64,000 nt of DNA from Bdellovibrio reynosensis (GTDB lineage Bacteria; Bdellovibrionota; Bdellovibrionia; Bdellovibrionales; Bdellovibrionaceae): NCBI RefSeq assembly GCF_022814725.1, contig NZ_CP093442.1:3286001-3350000 (forward strand), read 5' to 3'. The notes beneath the pieces were generated by a model. That model did no database searches. It saw nothing but the letters and a program-made list of their open reading frames with translations, and was not told where the DNA came from. Below, one piece after another: positions 1,310 to 28,829 of the stretch (its first letter is position 1; each line of letters starts with the position of its first letter). Made by a program: the position numbers and the translations under genes.

Positions 1310-2173
1310 TTAAGCTCCCACGACGTAAATAAGAATGAGGTAATGCAAAAGTAAATAAACGCCGGAAATATTTCTAAAAAGATTCGCGGTTTTGTTTGTT
1401 TTCTTAAGCAGGTATCCCAGGCTTATTAAGATATAAATTCCAGCGGCCACCGCAAAAAGCGGAAGCGAAAAATACCAGGCAATTATTCCTACACCCAGTA
1501 TCACTTGACTGATCGAAAGGGCCCAAGCCCCATGGCAGCCAAAAATATTTGAATAGCTTGGAACGTGGGGTCTTTCCTCGGTCGGTGCGAAAGTTTTTCG
1601 CGCAAATTCAAAGAGGTTAAAAAAGGCCCAGTTCATTAGAAAGAAAAATAAAATAGCGGGCGATAAGAGTGTAATATCAACGCCACTCATAGCCACGGCA
1701 CTTGAAAGACCTAAAAGCACGCTGACGAAGGTGTGAGTAACTGCATAAGTGGTGAGGTGAGGACGAAGAATTTCGCCAATAAAAAACTCTTCATACATTA
1801 ACAGACTATAACCAATAGCCATTGCATGAATCAAAAAAGCATTTCGCCCAAAGCAAGCCGCTAAAACAAGTTCGAAGATGATTAATCCAATCAGTGCTTT
1901 TTTTACTTGGATAACGCTTAAGATACCGCGAGCCAGGGGACGAGTGGGATTGACCTTCAAATCCACTTCATAGTCTTTGATCTCATCAAACAAGCGCATG
2001 CGGAAAAAGAAAGAAAGCATTAACAGGAAGACTCCAGCAAAACGCAACCAATCCCACGTGCCACTAGTAAGTTTGACCAAATAAAGGCCATTAGCCCATG
2101 AAAATAATAGGATCATGGGCACGTAGGCAGCAGGACTGAATCTCTCTTGGATGAGAATCCACCAATTACGCAA
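1310..2173 (-). CDS. UbiA-family prenyltransferase-like membrane protein
   Basis: A 287-residue protein made of about eight hydrophobic segments. After the second segment it carries FRMRLFDEIKDYEVD followed by NPTRPLARG. This matches the position of the Asp-rich NDxxDxxxD loop and the following PxRP motif of UbiA-superfamily enzymes, which bind Mg-prenyl diphosphate and alkylate an acceptor in the membrane. The first Asp-rich motif is variant (DEIKDYEVD), and I did not find a clear second DxxxD loop, so substrate and activity are open. It overlaps the upstream fusion gene by 8 nt and sits 3 nt from the dikinase gene, which implies co-translation. The surrounding acyl-activating genes suggest a lipid or meroterpenoid-like product rather than ubiquinone (inference). 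Confidence 0.75.
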   Translation of the reverse strand: MRNWWILIQERFSPAAYVPMILLFSWANGLYLVKLTSGTWDWLRFAGVFLLMLSFFFRMRLFDEIKDYEVDLKVNPTRPLARGILSVIQVKKALIGLIIFELVLAACFGRNAFLIHAMAIGYSLLMYEEFFIGEILRPHLTTYAVTHTFVSVLLGLSSAVAMSGVDITLLSPAILFFFLMNWAFFNLFEFARKTFAPTEERPHVPSYSNIFGCHGAWALSISQVILGVGIIAWYFSLPLFAVAAGIYILISLGYLLKKTNKTANLFRNISGVYLLLHYLILIYVVGA

Positions 2174-4565
2174 TAATCACCGCCGGGTCTTTTAATTGAT
2201 CACGCAGCACTTTGTATTCAACTTTCGAGTGATGACGCGGATCCATAGGTATCTTATGGACAAACTTAATTTCGTCCACTGGGATTTTGTTTTTATCAAA
2301 CACACGGCGAATTTCTTTTTTAGCAGCCTCATAATCAAAACCGTCTTTAGAAATTTCAGCTTTAAGCTCGATACAGGCATAAGTTGCCTGACCTAAATCC
2401 CTATGATCAACACCCAAGAAAGCGCAGCGATAAGTAAAGTCCATGCGTTTTAATAAGACTTCCGCGCGCACCGGGAAAAAGTATTTTCCAGCTCGTTCAA
2501 TTGCATTGTTAACACGGCCTACGATCCACAGGTCTTTATTCTTATCAATGTAAGCAAGGTCACCCGTGCGATGCCAGACGCGGTTTTGTGCATCCATGAT
2601 TTTAGTGGTTTTAAAGGCGTCTGGATTATTATAGTAATCTCGGCAAACGTGGTCACCTGTACAGATGAACTCACCAACTTCACCTTCTGGCAATTCTACT
2701 TTTGACCAATCACCATTTTGAAGTTCCACGGGGCCATCTTTAATGCGGATAAACTTAAAGTCGATGTCTTCGCTGATATGACCCACGTTCACACCTTCTT
2801 CGATGATTTCATTGTCTGTGATCGTACTTTCTTTTAGCATATCACGGCCTTCAATGTGGGCCATCGGCTCAGCCTCGGTAGAACCATACAAAATCCAAAG
2901 ATCTGTTTGCGGGGCAATCTCATAGAAGGCTTTTACGTCATCTTTAGAAATCGGCGCGCCACCGGTGACTACACGGCGCAGTTTTGTAAGCTGAATGCCT
3001 TTTTCTTTACAGAATTTAGCAAGGCCCACAAGCATGCTTGGCGATAATGTCGTGCAGTTGATATTTTCATTGATGATTTGATTAGCTAGGATGGCGGGAT
3101 CTTTTTCTGAGGGCGCTGCTAAATCCAGTGCCGGCAGAACTGTTGTTACACCCGATGCTAGGTTGTTTAAACTGAAAATAGGGAATGCCGGCATGTCCTT
3201 ATCCACTTCTGTATAGGGGATAACATGGGAAAGGGCATGATGTTGCGCAGACAAGAATCTATGGGTGCGGTTTGCTCCCTTAGGTTTACCAGTTGATCCC
3301 GTAGTGAAAGTGATAAGAGCTGTGAATTCACTTTCAACCGCAGCTACTGGTGAAGGATCTTTTTTAAGAAGCTCTTCAAAGCGGTGAGTGAACTTGTCAC
3401 CCGGTCCATATAAAATACGGATCGGCATTGATTTAAATTCGGGAACTTGATCAACAAGATCAAACGCCATTTTGAAGCTGATCATGGCTTTAGGATTTAC
3501 GCATTCAGCTGAAGCACCAAGGTGATGGCTTCGTGCCCATGAATCCAAGAACACGGCGATGGCGCCAATTCTTTGCACGGCAAACATAGCCGTGTACATA
3601 TCAAGACTCATAGGTAAAAAGATGATGACGCGATCGCCTTTTTGAATGCCGATATCTAATAGTCCGCGGGCGAAGGAATTAATTCTTGTCGCAAACTGCG
3701 CGAAGGTAATTTTATCGTGGGCAATAGGCGTGTGCGGATTGCCATCCCATTTTTGCAAAGCTTCGCGATTTGCCCAGGTTAAGGCAATGCGATCAGGGAA
3801 CTCACGCAAATGCTTTTCCATATAGCCGATGACGTTGTTGCGTTCGTCAGAACCTGGATAATAACCGATTTTATTATTTCCTTGCGAAGAAGACATAGCT
3901 TTAATCACCTCTTCGGGGTGGGACCATAAAAGGCCATGACCCGCATCTTTGATTTCCACGGATTTAAACTTTGGATAATGCTTTAAAATTTCACTTTGAA
4001 AAGCGGTCGCTGAAATCTTATCTTGTGTACCAAATAGCGCTGTCACTGGAATGTCGCACACATCGGATTTGGACCATGGATTTTTCTGCATAAGAATTTT
4101 GTTTTGCGCCGTCTTCTGCCAAAACTTCCAATCCTGCAGCCGTTCTTTAACTTCAGAAAGATACTTATCATGTCCTTCTTGCAAAGGATGAATAAGGTCC
4201 GCAAAAAAGCTGTCTTTGCTTTTTGCATGGTTGCCTTGAATGATTTTGTCACCAAGAACTGGCAATCCAAGCAGGGTTTGCGCAAGACCACTAAGCTCAC
4301 GCTCTGGCTTGATATAAGGGGTCACTAGAACCACGTGTTCGACATAGTCTTTGAACTGCGGAAGATTTTTAAGAATGCGGTAAGCACCCCAAGAATGGCC
4401 TAAAAGAATTTTTTTAGTTTTATCTTTTTTTAGAAGTTCCAACCATTGATCACTATAAGCATCAACAGCTTGCAAATCATATCCTTGGCCTTCAAGTTTC
4501 TTTTTCAAGATGGACCAATCTTCAGAATGACCAGGATTGCCGTGAAGTGCCAGGATGGTTTTCAT
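2166..4565 (-). CDS. Alpha/beta-hydrolase fused to OleC-like AMP-ligase
   Basis: A 799-residue two-domain protein. Residues 1-225 form an alpha/beta hydrolase with nucleophile elbow GHSWG (Ser58), a candidate acid in GTQDK (Asp182) and His in DAGHG (His210). Residues 245-795 form an ANL-superfamily adenylating enzyme with P-loop TTGSTGKPKG (421-430), YGSTEAEP and HRTGDLAYID. Details such as MPAFPIFSLNNLASG and VTGGAPIS recall OleC, the beta-lactone synthetase of long-chain olefin synthesis. Natural OleB-OleC fusions are known in actinobacteria. Here the hydrolase looks like a generic serine hydrolase rather than the Asp-nucleophile OleB. No OleA or OleD is seen in the window. It overlaps its neighbours on both sides (4 and 8 nt). 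Acyl-activating function is fairly secure; the product is unknown. Confidence 0.82.
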   Translation of the reverse strand: MKTILALHGNPGHSEDWSILKKKLEGQGYDLQAVDAYSDQWLELLKKDKTKKILLGHSWGAYRILKNLPQFKDYVEHVVLVTPYIKPERELSGLAQTLLGLPVLGDKIIQGNHAKSKDSFFADLIHPLQEGHDKYLSEVKERLQDWKFWQKTAQNKILMQKNPWSKSDVCDIPVTALFGTQDKISATAFQSEILKHYPKFKSVEIKDAGHGLLWSHPEEVIKAMSSSQGNNKIGYYPGSDERNNVIGYMEKHLREFPDRIALTWANREALQKWDGNPHTPIAHDKITFAQFATRINSFARGLLDIGIQKGDRVIIFLPMSLDMYTAMFAVQRIGAIAVFLDSWARSHHLGASAECVNPKAMISFKMAFDLVDQVPEFKSMPIRILYGPGDKFTHRFEELLKKDPSPVAAVESEFTALITFTTGSTGKPKGANRTHRFLSAQHHALSHVIPYTEVDKDMPAFPIFSLNNLASGVTTVLPALDLAAPSEKDPAILANQIINENINCTTLSPSMLVGLAKFCKEKGIQLTKLRRVVTGGAPISKDDVKAFYEIAPQTDLWILYGSTEAEPMAHIEGRDMLKESTITDNEIIEEGVNVGHISEDIDFKFIRIKDGPVELQNGDWSKVELPEGEVGEFICTGDHVCRDYYNNPDAFKTTKIMDAQNRVWHRTGDLAYIDKNKDLWIVGRVNNAIERAGKYFFPVRAEVLLKRMDFTYRCAFLGVDHRDLGQATYACIELKAEISKDGFDYEAAKKEIRRVFDKNKIPVDEIKFVHKIPMDPRHHSKVEYKVLRDQLKDPAVIIA

Positions 4566-5302
4566 ATTTTGGTTCCTCTAAGTCGTAATCTATAGAAGTC
4601 TGTGATCTTCGGATTGCTCCGATACACGGTACTTGTTGTTTTTAAGTTCTCTTGGCCCTGGATCTTTCCCGTATTTTCAAGTTCTGCCAACACGTTCGAG
4701 ATGGCTTTGGCTTCTAAGGCCGCACCCATTTCCAAAGAGGCTAAGTAGTCTTTTTTATCGGAGGGAACGACCTCGACCTTTAACAAGGCACCATCATCAA
4801 GTTTTGAGGTCATCTCATGAATGGAAAATCCCGCCTCGGTCTTATGAAGATGAGCCCAAAAATCACACATTAAACCGCGTTGATCAGGCAGTAATCCGTG
4901 ATGGATGTTAATGCATCCCATTTTGGGAATGCTTAGCAGGTTCTTTTTAAAGAAAGAACGAGTTCTTGCATTTACAATTAAATCTAACTTTAAAGATTTT
5001 AAAAGTTCTAAGCTTTCAGGGGAGTTGATGTCTTTAACGACAAGAATTTTTTTGCCAGCCGCTTGATACGCTTGGATTTTTCTTTTTAAGGAATTATCAA
5101 ATTGATTTTTAAGAAGCTGCAGTCCCATGAAAGGGGCGGCTCCTGAAAGGAAAAGAAGCAGAGCCTTTAGCACGATATCCCAAGAGCGGTTGTCTATGAC
5201 GATAAGGCCTTGGATCCGTGGATCGTTTGCCAGCGGTAAAACCAGGCCATCATAGTTCTTTGGGACAAATGTCACCGCTGAGGTGACAAGCCATGCGTTC
5301 AT
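4562..5302 (-). CDS. Formyltransferase-fold protein (Formyl_trans_N only)
   Basis: A 246-residue protein with the Formyl_trans_N signature INIHHGLLPDQRG near residue 131, then HEMTSKLDDGALL. The catalytic Asn-His-Asp trio of 10-formyl-tetrahydrofolate-dependent formyltransferases (Fmt, PurN, ArnA) appears kept. The usual SLLP folate loop reads GLLP. It is shorter than Fmt (about 315 residues) and lacks the C-terminal tRNA-binding OB domain, so it is not the translation-initiation enzyme. The start overlaps the stop of the acyl-CoA ligase (ATGA-type, 4 nt) and its end overlaps the hydrolase-ligase fusion. The context suggests formylation of an amine in the same pathway (inference). It could instead use another one-carbon donor or have lost activity. 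Confidence 0.75.
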   Translation of the reverse strand: MNAWLVTSAVTFVPKNYDGLVLPLANDPRIQGLIVIDNRSWDIVLKALLLFLSGAAPFMGLQLLKNQFDNSLKRKIQAYQAAGKKILVVKDINSPESLELLKSLKLDLIVNARTRSFFKKNLLSIPKMGCINIHHGLLPDQRGLMCDFWAHLHKTEAGFSIHEMTSKLDDGALLKVEVVPSDKKDYLASLEMGAALEAKAISNVLAELENTGKIQGQENLKTTSTVYRSNPKITDFYRLRLRGTKI

Positions 5303-7080
5303 AAATAAAGCTCTTCGATTTTATCCTTAAACTTTTGATCCAATACTTTTCTTTTTACTTTTAAAGACGGCGTAAGCTCGCCACCTTCCACAGAAAATTC
5401 ATTGGGAAGGACTGCATACTTTTTGATGCTTTCAAAGCTTGCAAGCTGGGCATTAGCATCAGCAATGGCTTTTCTTACTAGGTCTTGGGCAAATGGAGTT
5501 TGCACCAGCGAATTCCAATCGCTGAATGAAACCTGTTTTTCTTTTGCCAGGCTTTCAACCGATGGACGATCCAAGGTCACTAAAGCGATAATATATTTAC
5601 GTTGATCGCCATGAATGTGCACATGGGATACAAATGGATTCATCTTTAACAATCCATCAAGGCGCTGTGGCGCTACGTATTTACCACCAGCAGTTTTAAT
5701 CAAGTCTTTTTTACGATCCGTGATTTTTAAATCTCCGCCAGGCATGATTTCGCCGATGTCGCCGGTATGAAACCAGCCATCAGTGAAAACTTCTTTGGTG
5801 GCTTGCTCGTTATGAAAGTATTCTTTCATAACCTTATTACTTTTAATTAAAATCTCGCCGTCTTCAGCGATTTTAATTTTCACATCACCAATAGGACGTC
5901 CCACGCTGCCAAAGCGATAGTTGAATGGCGTATTCACGCACACAGCCGCTGTAGTTTCAGTAAGACCATAACCCTCAAGAATTAAGATTCCTGCAGAGTG
6001 GAAGAATAAAGCAATATCTTTTGAAATCGGCGCGCCACCACTGATGGAAAAACGCAGACGTCCGCCAAAGGCTTCAGTGATCTTAGAAAGTACAAGCTTT
6101 CTAGCCAGTTCATACTTCACAAGCAAATCAAGGGGCAAGATCTGACCGCTTAATTTATATTCGCCAACCTTTTGACCAACATCCAAAGCCCACTTGAAAA
6201 GTTTCATTTTCAAAGGTTGGGTTTGTACTTGCGCCCAGATAGCCGCATAGATTTTTTCAAAGATGCGCGGTACTGAAACTAAGATAGTCGGGCGAACTTC
6301 GCCCAAGTTCCCTCTGATTTTTTCGATGCTTTCTGCATAGGCCATAGTAAAACCAATGTACATATGGCCCCAGTGCTCGATGCGTCCCAGGATGTGGGCA
6401 TAGGGAAGAAAACTTAATGAAACGTCTTTTTCATTGACCCCGCATAAAGGGAAAGCTTCAGAAACTTCGCTGAAAGCCTGAAGGTGAGTAAGAACCACAC
6501 CCTTAGGTTTTCCGGTCGTGCCTGAAGTGTAAAGCAAGCTTGCCATATCATCAGGTTTTAGTGTTGAAACTCTTGAAGTATAGCAATCTGCATGTTCTTT
6601 TAGATAAGCAAAACCAAGCGCGTTTAAATGTTTCCAAGTGATCACGTCGGGGTTAGAAGCGTTATCTTCAAAAACAATGACTTTTTCAACCAAGGGGCAT
6701 TTATCTTTGATGCTATTAAAAACTTTTAAAGGACCTCGGGTTTCGCAAATAAGGATCTTTGCGCCACAGTTGTTAAGAATGTATTCAACATCTTCAGCTG
6801 TGTTGTTTTGGTAAATAGGAACTGTTACAGCTTTGATCCCAAGGATAGCGTAATCAGAAACAGACCATTCATAACGAGTATTAGCCATGATGGCAACGCG
6901 GTCCCCAGCCTGCACACCTAGCGATAGAAGTGCTGCCCCCACTTTTTCAATATCTTGAAAGTATTCAGACCAAGATTTGCTGTGCCATTGGCCATCTGCT
7001 TTAAAGCGAACAGCATCGGCATGAGGATTTCTTTTGGTCATGCTTAGAATAGATGGGCCCAGGGTGTCTAACTTCGTCAT
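5299..7080 (-). CDS. AMP-forming long-chain acyl-CoA synthetase
   Basis: A 593-residue ANL-family ligase of FadD15/long-chain-fatty-acid-CoA-ligase type. It carries the P-loop LLYTSGTTGKPKG (about 183-195), EGYGLTETTA, the WFHTGDIGE motif and the ITDRKKDLIKTAGGKYVAP hinge. The length fits bacterial and eukaryotic long-chain acyl-CoA synthetases, which activate fatty acids to acyl-AMP and then acyl-CoA at the inner membrane. A GAGGAG Shine-Dalgarno lies about 8 nt before the ATG. It is the first gene of the five-gene minus-strand operon and begins 40 nt after the stop of the kinase gene, so read-through from the kinase is possible. It probably supplies acyl-CoA for the operon's later enzymes, though a general role in fatty-acid activation cannot be excluded. 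Confidence 0.9.
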   Translation of the reverse strand: MTKLDTLGPSILSMTKRNPHADAVRFKADGQWHSKSWSEYFQDIEKVGAALLSLGVQAGDRVAIMANTRYEWSVSDYAILGIKAVTVPIYQNNTAEDVEYILNNCGAKILICETRGPLKVFNSIKDKCPLVEKVIVFEDNASNPDVITWKHLNALGFAYLKEHADCYTSRVSTLKPDDMASLLYTSGTTGKPKGVVLTHLQAFSEVSEAFPLCGVNEKDVSLSFLPYAHILGRIEHWGHMYIGFTMAYAESIEKIRGNLGEVRPTILVSVPRIFEKIYAAIWAQVQTQPLKMKLFKWALDVGQKVGEYKLSGQILPLDLLVKYELARKLVLSKITEAFGGRLRFSISGGAPISKDIALFFHSAGILILEGYGLTETTAAVCVNTPFNYRFGSVGRPIGDVKIKIAEDGEILIKSNKVMKEYFHNEQATKEVFTDGWFHTGDIGEIMPGGDLKITDRKKDLIKTAGGKYVAPQRLDGLLKMNPFVSHVHIHGDQRKYIIALVTLDRPSVESLAKEKQVSFSDWNSLVQTPFAQDLVRKAIADANAQLASFESIKKYAVLPNEFSVEGGELTPSLKVKRKVLDQKFKDKIEELYL

Positions 7081-9147: not shown

Positions 9148-9756
9148 ATGAGATGGATAGGACTGACCGGAGGTATAGCTTGTGGTAAGAGCACCGTAAG
9201 CCGTCTGCTCAAAAATCACTCCATTCCGATTATAGACGCTGACGAGATTGCTCACGAAGTCGTGCGGCCTGCTTCGCCTGGACTTAAGTCGGTTGTTCAT
9301 CACTTCGGAAATGAAGTTTTGAATGAAGACGGATCGTTAAATCGACGCAAGCTTGGCCAATTGGTGTTCGGTCATCCCGAAAAATTGAAAGCCTTAGAAT
9401 CTATTCTTCATCCACTTATTCGGGCTGAAACCCAACGTCGTCGCCAAGTACTGCTGGATATGAACGCGCCTTTAGCGATTTACGATATTCCGTTACTGTT
9501 TGAAACCCACGCTCAAGATCAGTTTGATGCCATTGTGGTAGTAACTTGCACTAAAGAACAACAAAAAGAGCGACTGCGCCGTAAAAACGGGTGGAGCGAA
9601 GACGAAATCGATATGCGCATTGCCTCGCAAATTCCCACTCAGTTTAAAGAAAAAGAAGCTGATTTTATTCTAGAGAACAACCGCGATGAACAGCATCTGC
9701 TGAAGGAATTCCATCGCTTGTTAGCCTGGTTGGAAGAACAGAAAAAACAAACCTAG
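9148..9756 (+). CDS. coaE: Dephospho-CoA kinase
   Basis: A 202-residue P-loop kinase that performs the last step of coenzyme A synthesis, phosphorylating the 3'-OH of dephospho-CoA. It has the Walker A GGIACGKST (8-16), DADEIAHEVV, LKALESILHPLI, DIPLLFE and the lid RLRRKNGWSEDE. These are the standard CoaE motifs at standard length. I chose ATG 9148 because AAGGAGA ends 8 nt upstream; an in-frame TTG at 9142 would be only 2 nt from that site. Its stop overlaps by 4 nt the end of the convergent barrel-like gene. The divergent partner is the PEGA kinase, and the shared 65-nt gap must hold both promoters. Confidence 0.96.
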   Translation: MRWIGLTGGIACGKSTVSRLLKNHSIPIIDADEIAHEVVRPASPGLKSVVHHFGNEVLNEDGSLNRRKLGQLVFGHPEKLKALESILHPLIRAETQRRRQVLLDMNAPLAIYDIPLLFETHAQDQFDAIVVVTCTKEQQKERLRRKNGWSEDEIDMRIASQIPTQFKEKEADFILENNRDEQHLLKEFHRLLAWLEEQKKQT

Positions 9757-10316
9757 AATCCCCAGTTGTAACCAAATTGCGCAAAGATATCAGGGCCAGT
9801 GATGGCGTAACCAATGCCAACTTCCGTGGTGAAAGTATCACCCACGCCCGCTGATGCTCGGAATCGCCAACGGCGTATTTCAACGAACCCGGCTAACTCT
9901 CCAGCGCCTTCAAGAAATAAGGCACCTGATAATCTTAAGTACGGAATGTAATCGTATTCAGGACAGCAGTAAAAGCGGCGTCCTGCAGAAAGGCCAATGA
10001 GGTTGCTTGAATTCACTTCAACTTGATAATCCCAAGTCGGAAACTCACTCCACAAGGGAAGATAGCGAATTGCTAGATAGGGCCCTTGAGAAACTTCATC
10101 CGCTTCTAGATAATTTCCACCCGAAAATCCCAGCGAAGTATTTAATAGGTAAGTCGGACTTTCCTCTCGGAGTTCAGGATCAATGGGTACTAAGTTCGGG
10201 TCTGGTTCCGTCGATAATGGAGTCGTTTCTAGTGTTGTTTTTGTTTGAGGCGCCGCCATTGTGTAAGGGGTGCTCAAGACGAAGGTCAAAAAAAGTAGAG
10301 AAAGAAAAACTCGCAT
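9753..10316 (-). CDS. Secreted protein, probable small outer-membrane barrel
   Basis: A 187-residue protein with a signal peptide (hydrophobic LSLLFLTFVL, cleavage near AAP, residue 22). The mature part alternates aromatic and small residues (YLAIRYLPLW, VEVNSSNLIGLSAG, WRFRASAGVG) and ends in FAQFGYNWGF, a terminal aromatic typical of BamA-recognised outer-membrane proteins. It has no recognised family in this reading; it resembles the small barrels common in Bdellovibrio. It converges on coaE with a 4-nt overlap. Upstream it is divergent from the TraF/PorV-like gene at 10391, sharing a gap of about 75 nt. Confidence 0.7.
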   Translation of the reverse strand: MRVFLSLLFLTFVLSTPYTMAAPQTKTTLETTPLSTEPDPNLVPIDPELREESPTYLLNTSLGFSGGNYLEADEVSQGPYLAIRYLPLWSEFPTWDYQVEVNSSNLIGLSAGRRFYCCPEYDYIPYLRLSGALFLEGAGELAGFVEIRRWRFRASAGVGDTFTTEVGIGYAITGPDIFAQFGYNWGF

Positions 10317-10390: not shown

Positions 10391-11575
10391 ATGTCAAAAA
10401 AAGGAACCGTCGTTCTAGCAGGATTGATGACTCTTCTTGCGGGACCGATTTCTTTGGCTGCTGAAAGCATCAGTACAACCATCCATCACTCTTACCAGGC
10501 GCCGCGAGCGTTGGGGATGGGAGACGCTTTCGTTGCCGTTGCAAATGATTACACAGCCATGTTTTATAACCCTGCGGGTTTAGCACGCAGAGAAGACGGG
10601 CAGATCAACATGTCTATGTCTTTTGCTGGTACGCCTGGTGTGATGGATTTTTACAATGAGTTTTCTGAAATTGAATCGTCGGGCCAATCTGAGTCTGATA
10701 AAACTCAAGCTATTTTGCAATTGATTGACGACCATTACGGTGAATCTATGCAATTCCGCCTGCAACCTCTGGAAGGTGTGTGGGTTCGTCCTAACTGGGG
10801 TATCGCTTTAATTCCTGCTGACGTTAGCTTGGACTTTGCTATGCATCGCCAAGTAGGACCAGCGATTGATACGACTCTGTATGCTGATACGACATTGGCA
10901 CTTTCTTATGCGGATGATATTAAATCTGTAAGCCATGGCCGTCTTTCTGTAGGTATCACAGGAAAATTCGTCAATCGTGCATTCTTCAGTAAGTCAGTGG
11001 CAGCTTCTGATTTCGCTTCTCAAGATGAAGTCATTCAGACTTCCGATCTTTTAGAGGGTTATACTCTTGACGCTGATATCGGGGCGTTGTGGACACCGGA
11101 ACTTCCTGACTCGGGAATGTGGTCTGTGCTTCGTTTGGCTCGCCCCACTTTCGGTGCGGTCGTTCGTAACGTCGGTGAAGTAGGATTTGGTCAAAGTCTT
11201 GGTTTAATTAACAAAGAAACGCAAAACGATACTCCTGAAAAATTGTACCGCGTGGTGGATTTAGGAAGCCGCTGGGAATATCCAAGCATGTGGATCTTTG
11301 GGGGGCGCGGTGTTCTTGATATCAGAGACATCAACCACCCTGAATTTAGCTGGAGAAAAGGTCTTCACTTAGGTTTTGAGTTCGACTGGACAATGACTTC
11401 ATGGTGGAAAGGACACTACCGCTTTGGTATGAGTCAGGGATTCTGGACCGCGGGTCTTTCTGCGGAACTTGGAATCTTCAACTTGGATCTAGTGAGTTAT
11501 GCTGATGACGTTGGAACTCGCAATACGCCGGTTGAAAGTCGTTTCTATGCTACGAAATTGAGCTTGGATTTTTAA
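10391..11575 (+). CDS. TraF/PorV-like outer-membrane protein (paralog 1)
   Basis: A 394-residue protein with a signal peptide (LAGLMTLLAGPISLAAE) and then ALGMGDAFVAVANDYTAMFY followed by NPAGL. This N-terminal signature marks the FadL/PorV-like barrels annotated as TraF-like or UPF0164. The rest alternates as expected for an outer-membrane beta-barrel and ends in KLSLDF with a terminal Phe. GGAGG lies 8 nt before ATG 10391, which I prefer to an in-frame upstream ATG at 10334 that would place 19 residues ahead of the signal peptide. It is the first of three paralogs in 5.5 kb (with 12594 and 14729), each with the GMG...NPA(G/A)L signature. A strong terminator follows. The transported or assembled substrate is unknown. 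Confidence 0.82.
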   Translation: MSKKGTVVLAGLMTLLAGPISLAAESISTTIHHSYQAPRALGMGDAFVAVANDYTAMFYNPAGLARREDGQINMSMSFAGTPGVMDFYNEFSEIESSGQSESDKTQAILQLIDDHYGESMQFRLQPLEGVWVRPNWGIALIPADVSLDFAMHRQVGPAIDTTLYADTTLALSYADDIKSVSHGRLSVGITGKFVNRAFFSKSVAASDFASQDEVIQTSDLLEGYTLDADIGALWTPELPDSGMWSVLRLARPTFGAVVRNVGEVGFGQSLGLINKETQNDTPEKLYRVVDLGSRWEYPSMWIFGGRGVLDIRDINHPEFSWRKGLHLGFEFDWTMTSWWKGHYRFGMSQGFWTAGLSAELGIFNLDLVSYADDVGTRNTPVESRFYATKLSLDF

Positions 11576-11650
11576 TCCGCGGTCGCGGGCAGAGCTGGAA
11601 CGCCGGCCGGCGTGGAAGCTGGAGCAGCTTAAAGTTCAAAGATAAAAAAA

Positions 11651-11676
11651 ACGGAGTCTTTAGACTCCGTTTTTAT
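11651..11676. terminator. Bidirectional rho-independent terminator
   Basis: An 8-bp perfect stem ACGGAGTC/GACTCCGT with loop TTTA is followed by a T-run on the plus strand. An A-run (11644-11651) precedes it and gives a T-run on the minus strand. It lies between the ends of the convergent genes at 10391 (plus) and 11701 (minus), so it can stop transcription in both directions. Confidence 0.9.
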
Positions 11677-11700
11677 TTTCTTCCCAGTCAAATCGGAAAA

Positions 11701-12399
11701 TTAATTTTCATTCCAGTGTTCAAGAAGAAGTTGACCGATTGTTTCAGCATCAGCTGGATCATTGATATCAATAGTTCCATCTTGTGCTAAGGCTTCATCA
11801 ATCGAACCGCACATGTCTTCGTTAGAAACAGTCAACGCGCAAGAAGCTGTATAGACTGCCTGAATAGTCGAACCAACGTCCTCTGCAACTTGGCCATCTG
11901 GGACAGTTGAAAGCTGTTGTAGGATTGCTGCTAGTTGCGCTTCAGGATCACCGCCTGAACCTAAAACTCCACCATATTCATTTAGAATTGTGGCAGTTTT
12001 AGCCATCGCACCAAGTAACTGTAAACCTTCGCTTCCTGAATCTTGACAATATTCAAATGTAGTATTCGCACGCTCTCTTGTATCAAAAGCTAAAACCCCA
12101 AGAACACCAGCAGAACTTCCGCCAGACTCATTCATAGTATTTAAAGCCTGGGAAAGATTCGCGGGACTAGCAACTTGGTAAAACCCTGCAGCACATCTTA
12201 ATTCGTTAGCTCTTTCAGAATTCAAGCCAGATATTTTAGTCATGCATGTATCTGCTTCGGATTCGCTTTGTGCATCGTCCAAGCAATACTGAGCTTCGGC
12301 TAACATGTCTTTTTCAGTTTGTTCAGCCTCACATCCTGTGAGTAAAAGTGATGTGCAGCTAAGTGCAAGCAAGGTTGCGGTAAGTTTAGAGAATCGCAT
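11701..12399 (-). CDS. Lipoprotein, unknown function
   Basis: A 232-residue lipoprotein with signal MRFSKLTATLLALSCTSLLL followed by the lipobox LTGC. The mature part is acidic, has several Cys residues and helical stretches (EAQLAAILQQLSTVPDG) and ends EHWNEN. I chose the ATG at 12399 because GGAGGAGA lies 7 nt upstream; an earlier in-frame ATG at 12414 would overlap that site. There is no recognised domain. It resembles the lipoprotein at 13689 in general character (acidic, Cys-containing, about 230-350 residues, beside a TraF/PorV-like barrel), which suggests barrel-lipoprotein pairs (inference). It is transcribed toward the terminator at 11651 and is divergent from the gene at 12594. Confidence 0.75.
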   Translation of the reverse strand: MRFSKLTATLLALSCTSLLLTGCEAEQTEKDMLAEAQYCLDDAQSESEADTCMTKISGLNSERANELRCAAGFYQVASPANLSQALNTMNESGGSSAGVLGVLAFDTRERANTTFEYCQDSGSEGLQLLGAMAKTATILNEYGGVLGSGGDPEAQLAAILQQLSTVPDGQVAEDVGSTIQAVYTASCALTVSNEDMCGSIDEALAQDGTIDINDPADAETIGQLLLEHWNEN

Positions 12400-12532
12400 C
12401 GAGATCTCCTCCATAGAGTCTTTTATATATAACTTATCGGAATTGCTTCTTGGGCCTTAACGGCGGAGGTCGAGGTTCTCTAAAAATGAGACGGGGAACC
12501 TGTACTTTTGACCTTATTTATTGGAAATGTCT

Positions 12533-12559
12533 CAAACTGAGCCCGAATTCTGCCGATAT
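12533..12559 (+). promoter_or_regulatory. Candidate sigma-28 (FliA) promoter
   Basis: CAAACTGA (12533-12540), an 11-nt spacer and GCCGATAT (12552-12559) match the flagellar sigma-28 layout TAAAGTTT-N11-GCCGATAA, strongly at the -10 half and moderately at the -35. It ends 34 nt before the GTG at 12594. It would drive the barrel/lipoprotein/barrel operon 12594-15847. Confidence 0.45.
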
Positions 12560-12593
12560 ATAAAGTGGTTCTAAATTTTCAGCGAGGTAGTCT

Positions 12594-13679
12594 GTGAAAA
12601 GGATTTTATGGATCGCGCTCTTACAATTTATTTTTCTTACGGCGTTGAGCTTCAATGTCAGCGCAAGAGAGCGTCGCAGTTTTTATAGTGGTGCCCGATG
12701 CCAAGCCATGGGCGGGGCGTGCATCGCCGTCACGAATGACGAAACAGCTCTGTTGGTGAATCCCGCAGCGCTTGGAAAATTACGTGATTTTTACGGAACT
12801 ATCTTCGATCCGGAATTAGAATTCGGATTTGAAACTCAAGGTATTTATCAAGATCACAATTTTTCAAACCCATACACTTTAAGCGATATCGTTCCTGCAC
12901 TGAACGTGAAGCGCGGCGCCCACTATCACGCGAAAGCCCAAGTCTTTCCTTCCTTTGTTGGCAGAAACTTTGGCGTTGGTATTTTTAGTAATTATATTCT
13001 TGATGCGAAGATGGCAGACGATGGAAGTACTGTCGATGCATTTTATCGTAACGACCTTGCCTTTGCCCTGGGTTTCAATTTCCGCTTATGGGATGGACGA
13101 ATCAAGATTGGTTTAGCGACGAAGATCGTAAGTCGTATTGAAGTGGATGATCCTTTATTAAGTGCCACAGGTCCATTGGATTATGAATCCATAGCTGCCG
13201 AAGGACTGGGATTATCAAATGATGTGGGTCTCATTTTGACTGCCCCATGGGCTTTATTACCTACAATTTCTGCTGTAGCTCGAGACGTTGGAACGACTAC
13301 TTTTGATTCAGCAGAGGGTGTACGAATGGACACAGCCACTCGTCCCAATATGGTAAAACAAGATTTAGACGTCGCTATGGCGATTTTCCCGATTCATTCA
13401 AATAATATTCGCAGTACATGGACGGTGGAATACCGTGGCTTATTAACCTCAGAAGATGAACCGGATAAAGCCAAATTGTTACACGCAGGATATGAGGTCA
13501 ACTTCGGGGATGTGTTCTTTTTTCGTGCCGGTTATAATCAAAGGTATTGGACAGCAGGCATGGAGCTTTCATCAGAACGTTTTCAGTGGCAAGTCTCTTC
13601 TTATGGTGAAGAGGTCGGAACTGTGGATGCGCCCGTCGAAGATCGCAGATACACTTTCAAATTTGCCTATAGATTTTAA
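12594..13679 (+). CDS. TraF/PorV-like outer-membrane protein (paralog 2)
   Basis: A 361-residue barrel-type protein with a signal peptide (LWIALLQFIFLTALSFNVSA). The family signature follows: QAMGGACIAVTNDETALLVN, then PAALGKLRDFYG. It ends YTFKFAYRF with a terminal Phe. GTG is the start; GAGG is about 6 nt upstream and no better start precedes the signal peptide. It shares the C-terminal pattern RYWTAGMELSSERFQWQVSS followed by YGEEVGTVDAPVEDRRY with the other paralogs (FWTAGLSAELG... DDVGTRNTPVESRFY in the first), which supports common descent. It is followed after 9 nt by a lipoprotein and then by paralog 3, so the three genes appear to form an operon. A sigma-28-like promoter precedes it. 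Confidence 0.82.
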   Translation: MKRILWIALLQFIFLTALSFNVSARERRSFYSGARCQAMGGACIAVTNDETALLVNPAALGKLRDFYGTIFDPELEFGFETQGIYQDHNFSNPYTLSDIVPALNVKRGAHYHAKAQVFPSFVGRNFGVGIFSNYILDAKMADDGSTVDAFYRNDLAFALGFNFRLWDGRIKIGLATKIVSRIEVDDPLLSATGPLDYESIAAEGLGLSNDVGLILTAPWALLPTISAVARDVGTTTFDSAEGVRMDTATRPNMVKQDLDVAMAIFPIHSNNIRSTWTVEYRGLLTSEDEPDKAKLLHAGYEVNFGDVFFFRAGYNQRYWTAGMELSSERFQWQVSSYGEEVGTVDAPVEDRRYTFKFAYRF

Positions 13680-13688
13680 GGACGATGT

Positions 13689-14738
13689 ATGAAGAGTGTT
13701 AAAAGAATTTTTATCATTTTCTTAAGTGCTGTTTTAACCACCTCGTGTGGTGATCCGAATCTATTGACTGAATTTTCAGAAACAGATTCTGACGAAGCTT
13801 TATGGGTCGACGCCAAAAAACACATTGATGATCTTGAGTGGGATTCCGCGATTGATATTATCGAAAATCAATTGAGCGCGGGATATCAAGAGCGTATCGA
13901 TGTGAAAGAGGGTTTAGCTGGAGCTTATGTTGGCAAATGTGGCTTAACTTTCTTAGAAATCGTTAGCGGAATGACGGATGCTCCATCTTCAAATCTTTTT
14001 GAATACTTCATGGGTATTTTTAAAGATATGGAATTAGAACCTGAACACTGTGAAACTGCGATTGAAATCATTCAAGGCTTGGGAACTGTATCGCAACGAA
14101 CTCAAGATCAAAATTTATTTTTAGCGATTCTTGGGATTGCTCGTTTGGGTGTGACTTTAAGTTATAAGTTAGATCAAGTGGATCATGACGGGCAGATGGA
14201 TGCAAATTCCAATGTATGTAACGATCATTCTGGAGGTCAACTTTCGCCTTGGCCGATGCCAGTATATCAGTTCATGCCTCGACAAACTCCAGTGCCGGCG
14301 CATTATTTAAATGATGCTGATATGAGAAAAATAGTCTCAGGATTTGGATTGATTATAGAGAATCTCGCTGCTCTAACCGCTGCAATTGGAAATGACAGCG
14401 ACACTATCACCGCTTTAGATGATTTTAAAGCGGATTGTCAGGAGGCTTCCGGGGATGTTGCTTGCGACATCACGGATCCGGACGATGTTGATGATGCTTT
14501 GATGAAATATGCGTTCAGAGTATTCATGGATACTTCGGATGTGGGATTCGGAACCTGTTCGTTGAGTACACCGTTGCCAGTCGATGACATTGCAGATTTG
14601 GTAGATGATTATCTTAGCGGCAGTGATGCCGACGACGATCCTGAACCCGATACTGCAGATGACGACGTTGATGTAGACGTTACTGGCTTATGCTGTCCAT
14701 CTACTTTACCTCCAGGATTTGATAACCCATGGGATTGA
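13689..14738 (+). CDS. Acidic lipoprotein, unknown function
   Basis: A 349-residue lipoprotein with signal KRIFIIFLSAVLTTSC (Cys20 predicted lipidated). The mature protein begins with helical, possibly TPR-like stretches (DAKKHIDDLEWDSAIDIIEN) and ends in a very acidic tail rich in Asp (SDADDDPEPDTADDDVDVDV) followed by CCPSTLPPGF. The Asp-rich segment suggests calcium or cation binding (inference). It sits between two TraF/PorV-like barrel genes and its stop overlaps the ATG of the next by 10 nt, so translation is probably coupled. This makes it a likely accessory subunit of the barrels. No named family was recognised. Confidence 0.75.
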   Translation: MKSVKRIFIIFLSAVLTTSCGDPNLLTEFSETDSDEALWVDAKKHIDDLEWDSAIDIIENQLSAGYQERIDVKEGLAGAYVGKCGLTFLEIVSGMTDAPSSNLFEYFMGIFKDMELEPEHCETAIEIIQGLGTVSQRTQDQNLFLAILGIARLGVTLSYKLDQVDHDGQMDANSNVCNDHSGGQLSPWPMPVYQFMPRQTPVPAHYLNDADMRKIVSGFGLIIENLAALTAAIGNDSDTITALDDFKADCQEASGDVACDITDPDDVDDALMKYAFRVFMDTSDVGFGTCSLSTPLPVDDIADLVDDYLSGSDADDDPEPDTADDDVDVDVTGLCCPSTLPPGFDNPWD

Positions 14739-15847
14739 TTTATGTAGTACTTGTTATTTTATTAAGTCCAGTCGTAGGCCATACCCAGGAACTCTACGAA
14801 CCCTTCCGCGGAATTCGTTCCCTGGGCATGGGTGGAGTTGTCATTAGTATCGTCAACGATGCAGAAGCTGTCTTTCATAATCCGGCCGCTTTAGGACGAG
14901 TAGAGGGATTAAATATCCATCTTTTAGAATTGGGTCTGGGCGGAAGAATGTTGTCTCCAGAAGATCTTGCTGCCATTGAAGGTATCGATAGTGATGACCC
15001 GTCGACCTACAACGATCTTTTTGGAACGCGCTTAAATTTTAAAGCTAATGGGGCCTTGGGGCTTGCTTTGCCATACTTCGGGGTTGGCTATTACACGGAT
15101 TATGATCTTTCATTAGAACTGCACAATCCAGGTTATCCCGAATTCACAACTTACTTTAAAAATGATTCGGCAGTTTCAATTGGAGCGGCTTATCCCGTCG
15201 GTCCTAAATCATACATTGGTATGGCACTGAAACGTATGACTCGTTGGGGTGGAGAGACTCAAGAATTAGGTTTAACTACCGTTGCCAACGCCGGTGATAT
15301 TCAAGGTGTGATGGATGAATTTGAAAACAAAGGCCAAGGTTATGGTATTGACCTTGCCTTGTTAACGGAGGTTCCCGCTCCATTAAGTCCTGTGCTGACC
15401 GTCGTGTGGCAAGATGTGGGTAGTACCGCTTTCACAAAAACCGGTGGGGCGGATGCTCCTCCGCATGTTCCCCAGAATCTTTCTGCCGGTGTCAGCTTAG
15501 GCCTGGATTTGCCCGGTTTAGATTGGGTGTTTGCGATGGAAGGTCGCCACTTGTTAGAGCCTGAAGTGCAGATTGGTAAAAAGGTTCACATTGGTACCGA
15601 AATCTCAATCCCATTTTTGGATTTAAGAGCGGGTATCAACCAAGGTTACATGACTTATGGTGTAGGCTTTGATTTCTTAATTTTCCGTCTTGATGCTGCA
15701 AGTTACACAGAAGAGCTTGGCATCTATCCCGGGCAAACAGCGGATAATCGAGTTATGATCGGTCTTAGCATCGATTTAGGCTTTGATGCTAACTTTAATT
15801 TCACTGATAATAGCGGTAAGAAAAGAAAGCTTAAACAGCGTCGGTAG
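14729..15847 (+). CDS. TraF/PorV-like outer-membrane protein (paralog 3)
   Basis: A 372-residue protein with a short signal peptide (GLIYVVLVILLSPVVGHTQE) and then RSLGMGGVVISIVNDAEAVF and HNPAALGRVEG, the family signature of the two upstream paralogs. The C-terminal QGYMTYGVGFDFLIFRLDAA and YTEELGIYPGQTADNRVMI parallel RYWTAGMEL...GEEVGTVDAPVEDR. Unlike them it has a basic tail, KKRKLKQRR, after IGLSIDLGFDANFNF, which is odd for a barrel C-terminus. Its start lies inside the end of the lipoprotein gene (10-nt overlap). It is the last gene of the operon, and the next gene, the AddB-like nuclease, starts 38 nt later behind a hairpin. Confidence 0.8.
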   Translation: MGLIYVVLVILLSPVVGHTQELYEPFRGIRSLGMGGVVISIVNDAEAVFHNPAALGRVEGLNIHLLELGLGGRMLSPEDLAAIEGIDSDDPSTYNDLFGTRLNFKANGALGLALPYFGVGYYTDYDLSLELHNPGYPEFTTYFKNDSAVSIGAAYPVGPKSYIGMALKRMTRWGGETQELGLTTVANAGDIQGVMDEFENKGQGYGIDLALLTEVPAPLSPVLTVVWQDVGSTAFTKTGGADAPPHVPQNLSAGVSLGLDLPGLDWVFAMEGRHLLEPEVQIGKKVHIGTEISIPFLDLRAGINQGYMTYGVGFDFLIFRLDAASYTEELGIYPGQTADNRVMIGLSIDLGFDANFNFTDNSGKKRKLKQRR

Positions 15848-22612: not shown

Positions 22613-23563
22613 ATGCGTATTAGATTCGGTTTATTGATGCTTGCATTGTTCGCTGTCGCCTCGGTGGCGCCACGGATGGCTGATGCAAATGAAAGTGCTT
22701 TTGTGGTGGCGGGCCCGCCAGATTTATCAACACTCCACGATGACCCAAGCTATCCTGGTTGGAATGAATGGGCCCACATTGGTGGGACGGGAACCTCAGA
22801 TCCTGCAGCCTGTTCACGATCTAATTATCGCACCGATGTTTTTGTGCGCGGAACAGACAATGCTCTTTGGTATAAACATTGGAATGGATTTTCGTGGTCG
22901 GCTTGGGTTTCTTTGGGTGGAACTATAACGTCTTCACCTGCAGCTGCTTGCTGGGGTCCAAATCGTATCGACGTTTTCGCACGTGGAACTGACAATGCTT
23001 TATGGCATCGTACAATGCGCCATGGAACATGGTCAGCATGGGTTTCCAGAGGAGGAACGTTAACTTCCGGTCCTGCGGTGGCTTCTTGGGCTGGCGGACG
23101 CTTGGATGTTTTTGTTCGCGGCACTGACAACGCCTTATGGCACCTTTGGTATGCTGGCGGTTCATGGCGGTCATGGGAATCTTTGGGCGGGACTTTAACT
23201 TCCGATCCGGGCGCTGTCTCGTGGGGACCAAATCGCATCGATGTGTTTGTGCGTGGAACTGATAACGGTCTTTGGCACAAATGGTGGAACGGTTCATGGT
23301 CAGGCTGGGAATCTTTGGGTGGAACCTTAACTTCGTCCCCGGATGCGGCTTCAATGAGACCTAATCACATAGATGTATTTGCTCGCGGCGGTAACAATGC
23401 TCTTTGGCACAAGTGGTGGAACGGATCTTCTTGGTCTGGTTGGGATTCTTTAGGTGGAACTCTTATATCCGGACCGGGTGCTACATCCAGCGCCAATGGC
23501 AGAGAATTAGTGTTCGTATTAGGCACGGATGCGAAAGTTTACTATCGCAGCTATCGCGAATAG
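22613..23563 (+). CDS. Secreted DUF346/PLL-type beta-propeller lectin
   Basis: A 316-residue secreted protein with a signal peptide (GLLMLALFAVASVAPRMADA). The mature part is six tandem repeats of about 44-46 residues built on the pattern GGTLTSxPxAxSWGPNRIDV and FVRGTDNALWHKWW plus SWSxWESLGG. These are DUF346 (PF03984) repeats, as in the fucose-binding PLL lectins of Photorhabdus. PLL itself has seven blades. Here six repeats are visible, with the N-terminal WNEWAHIGG able to close the last blade. Trp and aromatic residues between blades would make glycan pockets (family knowledge). AAGGAGG precedes the ATG. It stands alone between a PilZ gene and a strong terminator. A role in binding prey or matrix glycans is inferred. 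Confidence 0.88.
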   Translation: MRIRFGLLMLALFAVASVAPRMADANESAFVVAGPPDLSTLHDDPSYPGWNEWAHIGGTGTSDPAACSRSNYRTDVFVRGTDNALWYKHWNGFSWSAWVSLGGTITSSPAAACWGPNRIDVFARGTDNALWHRTMRHGTWSAWVSRGGTLTSGPAVASWAGGRLDVFVRGTDNALWHLWYAGGSWRSWESLGGTLTSDPGAVSWGPNRIDVFVRGTDNGLWHKWWNGSWSGWESLGGTLTSSPDAASMRPNHIDVFARGGNNALWHKWWNGSSWSGWDSLGGTLISGPGATSSANGRELVFVLGTDAKVYYRSYRE

Positions 23564-23636: not shown

Positions 23637-26600
23637 CTATCTGTTGTATTCAGGGTTCGTCATCAAAGTAAGCTTGCTTAGGAATTCGATGTTTTTCATG
23701 ATCACACCATAGCTAACATCAAGCTGCATTCCATTCACCAGTTGCGAAGCCCAATTTCCCCAGCCTTTGAAGGATGGATTTTTGGATTGCTCCGCCAAGG
23801 CTGCACCAAGTTGCGCGCCAGTAGCTTTAACTGCTTTTTGGCTTAACGAGTGAAGAGGCAGGGCCTGACCCGCTAAGTAAGTTTTAGTTCTCAAAGAGCG
23901 AGATTTTTCTAGATGCGGTTTCATATTCTGCTTTTTATCAGTTGCATTTTGTAAATCGATAGCTAAAGCAATCACTTCCTTATTTTCAGCGATGATGTAT
24001 TCAATTTGTTTTTCAATTGCCAATTCAGGATTCGCTTTTACCACGTCTGCTGAAACAATTTTGCCGTCTTTATTTAACTCGTTCAACTTTTCGATCAATA
24101 CTGCTTTTTCCTTTGCAACCATCTCGTTAAATTTTTCTCCACCGAAAGAGCTTTGAACCTGCGCTATGAAAAGTTTCGCAAAAAGTGGTTCAAGAACCTT
24201 ACCTGACTGGATGAAGAAGTTCTTAGCTGCTGCAACCGATAGGATTGCATTTGAAGAAGTCGCATTATCCAAGGCCCAGAAGCTAAGACGAGTCGTGCTG
24301 CTTTCGGATACGCCAAGTTGGCTTAGAGCAATTCTATCAGTAGGCGCACTTCCGATACTGCTGCCGACTTTAAACAAGGATGCAAAGTTATCTTGATCTC
24401 TTAACGTTGCCGCCTCCAGATTAAAGATAGAGTAAATTGCTGCATATGTTGTCATAGCAGGAGTGATCGTAGAGGTTGCTCCTTCGATAGGATGCAAGGC
24501 AACCTTGTCGTTTGTAAAGGTTGGTTGCAATTCATCTAGCATCATTCCTGTCACAGTATTCACATACAAGCTTTCTTCAGGACGCTTTCCTAAAGTGTAC
24601 TTTTCAAAATCAAGGAACGAGAAAATGATGTTTTGAGACCGGTATTTATACTGCGGGAAACCTTTCATCGTTAAGAAGTTAAGCGCAGCGATTTTGTCGT
24701 TTTCGTATCCAACAGTATCAATTCGGTGTTCATTAACCGAAAGAGTTTGAATGGCACGAGTTTCAACAAGGGCCACATCAGGAATCATCTCGCCAGTCTC
24801 ATTCCCATTCTTGTCTAATTCTGGGTAAGAATAAGTTATTGCTTGGAAGCGATCTGTATTTTTAAAAGCAAGATTTGCATCTGGCGTTCTTAATACTTGG
24901 TTATAGAATAAATACACTTTCGTAGCAGCGTTCTCTAGATCGGCAAGTTCTGCTGCATCGTGAGGGCCTACTTGTTCCCTGTAGTACAATTCATCAAAGA
25001 ATTGGCGCATTGTGAACATCTTGTAAGCGCTTGAACCGATAGCTCTACCCGCAGCGCCTAAGCCGAAGTTGTTTCTGTCCCAAGCGTGGTAACCGTTGAT
25101 ATAGTTTTGTTCGTAGTCTTCAATGATATTTTCTACGATTTCAGTCGCGCTTGTACCGTGGTCAAAGCGTTGACATTGTGGTTCGTACCCAACGTGCACA
25201 TCAGTGCAATATTTGTATGGCTTCAAGATGCCCTTGATTTGGTGGCTGCTGAAGTTGTTCCATCCAGTAGGTGCAAAACTCGATTTAATAGTATCGATTT
25301 TGATAAACTTATCCTGAACAATAAGTCCACCTTTGTTTTGTTTTTTCAAATTCTCAATGACATTTGGACTTAGCTCTAACAAACCTTCATGGGCAGCACG
25401 AAGTGCATGGATGTCGTAAGTACCGATGCCATCCCAGTTAAATTTACCTGGTTGCATGTAATCCATGATGGATGAATAGTTTCTGTTTGAATCTGTTCCA
25501 TCCATGTTTTTGAAGTTTTCTTTATCGAAAGAAGCGATGAAATTGTGAGTCAGACCCTGAGAGTGACCCATTTCATGACCCAGATCGAAGTAAAGAATAT
25601 CTCTTAATGCATCTTCGAATTTTTTATTGGCAAAATCGCGGCCAATATCTGCTGTCGACGTTAACAGACAGCCAGGCGCATTCTTAAACAAGGCATTCAT
25701 TTTAGAACGCAATTTACCAGTATGAACCGCGCGCTGAAGATCCAGGCGTTGGGCAGATGTAAGAGTGCCTTCTTTCGATGCAAGCATTTCTGCAGCTACA
25801 ACACCTTGCAGCTCTTGTTCGTCCATGTTTCTGTTTTCAGCAAGTTTTCTTAGCACACGGTCAATCCATGCGCTTTCCATTTGTGGTGGAGCATATTTAA
25901 ATGTGCCTGCACCAGCAACTTGCATATTCTTAACCGCAGCTTGAATGTCTGATGAAACTAAGTTCGCTTTGCTAGCACTTACAAAGGAGCTACCGTTCAA
26001 ACGAATTCCTTTTAGTAAGCCATTAACTCCTTGAGTGAACTGATTTGCTGCTTTGGCTTTTTCTACAGCAACAGCGCCCACAGTCTTCGCTTCTTTAGAA
26101 GACTTATCTTTGGCTTTTAGCTCTGCAGCCTTTGTGTCGCGCAGGTGAGCCTTCATTGCATTCCATTGTAGACTATTTCTTAAGGTGTGCTGGAAACCTG
26201 CAACGAACTGCTGCAAGTTACCTGCGTAAATAATTAACGAGTCAGCGACAACGATACCAGAGCGGGGATTGTAACCCACCATTGAAACACCTAGAACACC
26301 GTGGTTATCGTTAAACTTGTTTTCAAAGTGGATGATGTTTTTATCTAAGTCGCCGACTTTAGCTTCAATTCCATTTTCACCAGCGAATTGGATGTCTACA
26401 TATCGACCGTCACGTTTTTCATTTTTTACTGCAAAGGCTTGTTTATAAGCGAAGTCCCATGCATCAACTACCTTGCGAGCTGTTTCTTTGTAAATCTGGC
26501 GAATCTTTGGATCTAGGTCCACAGAAGGTTCAAGACCAGTCACAGTGTACATGATCTTTTTACCGTCGCGTAGATCATGAACAACAGAGTAGTTGGTTTC

Positions 26601-28535: not shown

Positions 28536-28829
28536 TGAGTTCTCCGATCCCTTTTTGTCACCACCCAAAACCCATATCTAATATATAGGCTATGGAACAG
28601 TGACTCTCTCCTAATAGGTTATAAATGCACTGACGGTGCCATCTGTAGAGAACTCTCATGTTGAATAGGTTCCATTTCAGGTTAGAAATGCGTTTAAACT
28701 TTTAACACAGGACAATTAAGGGAAAGCGTCTCAAAACGAAACAGTTGTATTCACGCAGCCATCTTTACAAGTTCTTGTCCGTCAGAAATTTTAAAAGAAT
28801 CATGCATAAAAAAAGACCACGGAGGGTTC
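28536..28829. other. Divergent intergenic region with direct repeats
   Basis: This gap separates the divergent metalloprotease and TTHB210-like genes. It holds AGGTTATAAATGC near 28617 and AGGTTAGAAATGC near 28679, an imperfect direct repeat spaced about 62 nt apart. Both are preceded by or close to AATAGGTT. They could be activator or repressor sites for either gene. No clear sigma-70 boxes were assigned. Confidence 0.35.

Follow-up and report, generated by a model that had tools for sequence, protein, structure and literature searches.

The window, a 64,000-nucleotide stretch of Bdellovibrio reynosensis DNA, holds five neighbouring genes between positions 10391 and 15847. The original prediction had described them as three barrel genes with two lipoprotein genes set among them, the last two overlapping by 10 nt. 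ORFs were found at all five coordinates, both lipoproteins adjoin the barrels, and the L2 and B3 ORFs share exactly 10 nt. The features are as follows:

10391-11575, plus strand: B1, predicted FadL-superfamily barrel paralog of 394 aa with a TraF_2 match (evidence: ORF, PF13729, paralog alignment, tree)
11647-11674, both strands: terminator-like hairpin with a 12 bp stem, in the gap between B1 and L1
11701-12399, minus strand: L1, acidic lipoprotein with a lipid Cys and six invariant Cys (the ORF extends to 12414; the family start is 12399)
12594-13679, plus strand: B2, predicted FadL-superfamily barrel of 361 aa with a GTG start, phylum-wide
13689-14738, plus strand: L2, predicted acidic TPR-like lipoprotein of 349 aa, lipobox Cys20
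14729-15847, plus strand: B3, barrel paralog immediately 3' of L2 and its putative partner
15785-15844, plus strand: C-terminal tail of B3, past the region it has in common with B1 and B2; last residues KLKQRR

B2, L2 and B3 run head to tail, with a 9-nt gap between B2 and L2, and are followed on the 3' side by addB, addA and a PilZ gene. L1 is encoded on the strand opposite to the other four genes. Because the terminator-like hairpin lies between B1 and L1, the locus probably comprises three transcription units: B1, L1 and B2-L2-B3.

The barrels share 24-28% pairwise identity. A search of the 3.58 Mb single-contig genome with B2 returned, beyond B2 itself, only B3 (E 5.3e-20) and B1 (E 4.9e-16), which places the paralogy proposed for them beyond chance. 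As for their supposed common motifs, GMG is loose, B2 having AMGG instead; the common C-terminal pattern is real on alignment, and B3 alone continues for about 20 residues past it.

A tree of 118 rows recovers B1 (23 rows) and B2 (24 rows) as clades at SH-aLRT 100, and B3 (24 rows) at 92, each of the three being its own clade across the order Bdellovibrionales. Barrels from outside the order group with either B2 (SH-aLRT 98) or B3 (94); B1 itself branches on the side of B3 (98). On this tree, the B2/B3 split is older than the families sampled in the phylum. The deep branching order is unsure, as the tree comes from a quick search without bootstrap, was midpoint-rooted for drawing, and leaves 37 forks open, with L215 as one long branch. 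An 'expanded' system had been suspected at this locus; aligned and dated in this way, the paralogs are old, and a recent expansion is ruled out.

The AlphaFold2 model of B2 (pLDDT 92.9, pTM 0.85) has a confident FadL/PorV/BamG-like fold. Foldseek gave PorV as its best match (8gl6_F, E 1.5e-8), with FadL next, and VIA-align gave CymD (Z 25.0, 281 residues aligned at 3.5 Å), FadL and TodX (about 24), PorV (23.2-23.3) and BamG (21.5-21.8). The predicted barrel, its N-terminal hatch and the NPA motif are features shared with the FadL, TodX and CymD channels (Z 22.6-25.0 over 277-291 residues), although identity to B2 is 11-17%; on this model, B2 belongs to the FadL superfamily. A FadL-like fold is assigned to B3 and B1 by homology to B2 (B2-B3 profiles, prob 100).

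B1 matched TraF_2 (PF13729) at 28.5 bits, the cut-off being 25; B2 and B3 gave no match to it at E <= 1, and the Pfam FadL/Toluene_X model was not among the barrel matches at the same threshold. On PorV of type IX secretion, raised by the original prediction, NCBIfam PorV_fam is the top NCBIfam match for all three barrels, but they scored 39.3, 35.6 and 30.4 bits against a cut-off of 90. A genome search for SprA was empty at E <= 1, the control genomes likewise all staying below the cut-off. Type IX membership of the barrels is not supported by these searches. On the BamG model, B3 reached 12 bits against a cut-off of 250, and 1 of 50 B3 members matched it at E <= 1e-3.

Both lipoproteins are acidic, with a mature pI of 4.1. 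L1 has a canonical lipobox (LLTGC), and the six Cys that are invariant in its family besides the lipid Cys suggest three disulfides. The lipobox of L2 (VLTTSC) is weaker, its Cys being invariant in the family. AlphaFold2 predicts L2 to be almost wholly helical (pLDDT 84.4, pTM 0.80). Foldseek returned nothing under E 0.001 (best E 0.18), and VIA-align reached a best Z of 10.2, with BamD at 7.3-7.6; according to the tool, values below about 13 are uninformative for helical repeats. With matches this weak, only 'TPR-like' is safe, and we class the L2 model as a TPR-like helical protein and no closer.

An identity of L2 with BamD was rejected: the sole match above the BamD/YfiO cut-off (81.4) is G000:C1:2426763, at 211.8 bits, and the L2 locus is absent from the BamD/YfiO matches at E <= 1 in the genome. 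Against BamD chains, the L2 profile matches the signal and first repeat only (best E 9.6e-5). Aligned to each other, the L1 and L2 profiles reach prob 94.6 when signal peptides are included and 46.6 (E 2e-4) for the mature parts, where five column shuffles and one reversal gave prob <= 0.2: a hint that the two may be distant paralogs. The L2 family also carries an acidic DxDxDGxxD-like loop, in strict form in 47 of 121 rows and in loose form in 101 (in some rows elsewhere in the protein), which is possibly a calcium loop.

We surveyed relatives on two scales: 57 fragments around L2 matches in the order, mapped with the window proteins, and a phylum sample of 144 genomes, 37 in Bdellovibrionales and 107 outside. 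Synteny of the five genes extends across the order. All five are present on 40 of the 57 fragments, and at the threshold applied the remaining 17 miss at least one of them within the fragment. L2 followed by B3 is intact in every order fragment having both genes (53/53), and B2 followed by L2 is kept in 48 of 52, with B2 inverted in the other four. Four of the 57 fragments are without B3. One of them carries a second L2 copy (L119, in genome G017), and no barrel was found on its 16 kb.

The 34 of 144 genomes that the L1 profile matched all belong to the order, the 107 from elsewhere giving no match; by this search, L1 is order-specific in this sample. L2 is present in the same 34 of the 37 order genomes. 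Both lipoproteins are missing from G039, G125 and G147, which are natural loss cases; G039 and G147 are also without barrels among the matches listed.

Over the whole sample, 91 of the 144 genomes have an L2-profile match, and many of the matches beyond the order are weak. At least 33 of the 34 order genomes carry a B3-type barrel immediately 3' of L2 on the same strand (in the exception, G048, the gene sits close to the end of its contig), as do at least 43 of the 57 L2-matching genomes outside; the other 14 show no L2-B3 pair among the matches listed. Counted by rows, at least 76 of 120 L2 genes are paired in this way. At 20 further loci, 15 of which had no match in the earlier L2-profile search, a relaxed search of local ORFs (E <= 0.1) showed B3 preceded by an L2-like gene in 16 cases, two of these at E 0.02-0.04 only. 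B3 stands without an upstream lipoprotein gene at three of the 20 (L233, L235 and L240), and at L229 the upstream ORF has no L2-profile match. The barrel-lipoprotein pairing that the survey was meant to find thus holds phylum-wide for L2 and B3. From its distribution, the pair appears older than the order and ancestral to most sampled Bdellovibrionota, with B2 as a solitary relative of B3, seemingly as old as the pair itself.

L2 and B3 also evolve in step. Using residual branch rates on a fixed background tree of neighbouring housekeeping genes (35 taxa), we obtained a rho of 0.72 for L2-B3 (60 branches), against 0.32 for L2-B2 and 0.33 for L2-B1. The bootstrap difference between L2-B3 and L2-B2 spans 0.11 to 0.71. 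Four branch-length cut-offs give 0.69-0.76 for the L2-B3 correlation, and removal of two fast lineages leaves it at 0.72. Distance is not the cause of the excess, since L2 is equally close to B2 and B3. An adjacent predicted secreted protein (9753-10316, 22 taxa), taken as a control, gave 0.14 with L2; its higher values with L1 (0.42) and the barrels (0.43-0.62) show that nearby secreted proteins share rates in general, which counts against an L2-B3 complex. For the same reason the correlations of L1 are not partner-specific, that with B1 (0.51) being no higher than those with B2 or B3. The residuals of AddB, STK and CoaE are biased, as these genes belong to the background tree. Partner-specific evidence is thus confined to L2-B3, with none for L1 or B2.

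All 117 B3 rows from the order end in Arg-Arg, 114 of them in K-x-R-R and 87 in LKQRR; the rows come from two overlapping collections and represent 95 distinct genes, excluding the window. The stretch before this end varies in length and composition. The codons of the conserved end vary synonymously; the constraint therefore acts on the protein. No B2 row has three basic residues among its last six (0/52), no such basic end appears among the B1 and B2 ends displayed (six of each), and B3 barrels from outside the order have other C-terminal ends. A general KQRR sorting tag is ruled out, because the KQRR-stop pattern is not enriched in the genome of the window (21 occurrences against 20 for the reversed-pattern control). 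Nor can the tail be the ancestral dock of L2, as it is absent outside the order where L2 is present.

Kept together across the phylum and evolving in step, L2 and B3 point to an unstudied outer-membrane complex. The explanation we favour, with slightly better than even confidence in it as a whole, makes L2 the dedicated periplasmic adaptor of B3. In this complex, ancestral to most sampled Bdellovibrionota, the lipid-anchored, TPR-like L2 would dock on the periplasmic face of the FadL-type B3 and would either aid its assembly, in the manner of a pilotin, or couple it to other parts of the envelope. The ancestor of Bdellovibrionales would have gained B1, L1 and the basic B3 tail, the last of these probably as an additional docking peptide. 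The putative complex may, like FadL barrels, handle lipids or hydrophobic molecules at the outer membrane; this is our best guess by analogy, held with low confidence, and it fits the presence of a FadD11-like acyl-CoA ligase (5299-7080) in the conserved order-level block. As to the barrel-lipoprotein system originally set against unrelated neighbours, synteny, the phylum-wide pair and rate covariation speak for it, with the partner-specific part holding for L2-B3 only.

Secretin-pilotin pairs such as PilQ-PilF and PulD-PulS offer a parallel. PilF is a TPR lipoprotein, as L2 may be, and PulD is an outer-membrane protein with a linker and a conserved C-terminal peptide, comparable to those of B3; however, the B3 barrel is FadL-type, and its tail is missing from the L2-B3 pairs outside the order.

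The same ligase could serve another arrangement, in which B1-B3 are ordinary FadL-type uptake channels for fatty acids or other hydrophobic molecules, used with it, and the lipoproteins are conserved neighbours that make no direct contact. The best VIA-align matches of the B2 fold, FadL, CymD and TodX, speak for this, yet we judge it unlikely: the L2-B3 pairing is kept phylum-wide in differing surroundings, its rate covariation is specific, and the barrels gave no match to the Pfam FadL/Toluene_X model at E <= 1. We know of no TPR lipoprotein partner for FadL. A duplication of L2-B3 that yielded L1-B1, and with it two complexes with different clients, would be compatible with the adaptor role of L2. 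The grouping of B1 towards B3 in the tree and the L1/L2 profile alignment argue for it; the L1-B1 covariation, not above that of L1 with the other barrels, the opposite strands with a hairpin between them and the weak mature-only similarity argue against it, and we regard such a duplication as possible but doubtful.

FadL-type barrels have lately been found as structural parts of Bacteroidota machines, the fold serving assembly in BamG and secretion in PorV (PMC12578637, PMC12611786). In the first of these papers, the FadL homologue BamG is described as binding BamH, a lipoprotein, and a putative operon contains BamG2-BamH2. Barrels of the B1-B3 kind might likewise form a BAM-linked or PorV-like scaffold that keeps lipoproteins or further clients in place at the outer membrane; the likeness of B2 to BamG (Z about 22) and PorV and the barrel-lipoprotein pairing would allow this. 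We find this the least probable reading, given that B3 falls far short on the BamG sequence model, that BamH, a surface lipoprotein, differs in kind from the TPR-like L2, and that a canonical BamD is encoded elsewhere in the genome. It is conceivable, if speculative, that B3-L2 together with B2, B1 and L1 make up an outer-membrane machine not described before, the equivalent in Bdellovibrionota of the BamG-BamH or PorV systems, in which the TPR adaptor and the order-only dibasic tail of B3 recruit periplasmic partners.

In the literature searched, we recognised no description of the L2-B3 gene pair or of the B3 tail. For the L2-B3 complex that we favour, the phylum-wide pair provides a second, independent setting, beside Bacteroidota, for asking whether FadL-type barrels use dedicated lipoprotein partners, and the Arg-Arg end that B3 shows throughout the order is a well-defined feature that lends itself to testing.

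Elsewhere in the window, the gene at 2166-4565 (minus strand) encodes a 799-aa fusion of an alpha/beta-hydrolase and an AMP-ligase, like the OleB-OleC enzymes of olefin synthesis, and lies near a UbiA-like and a FadD-like gene. Further along are a DUF346/beta-propeller lectin-like protein (22613-23563) and a met-zincin-like protein of 1643 aa (DUF4953, 23637-28568).
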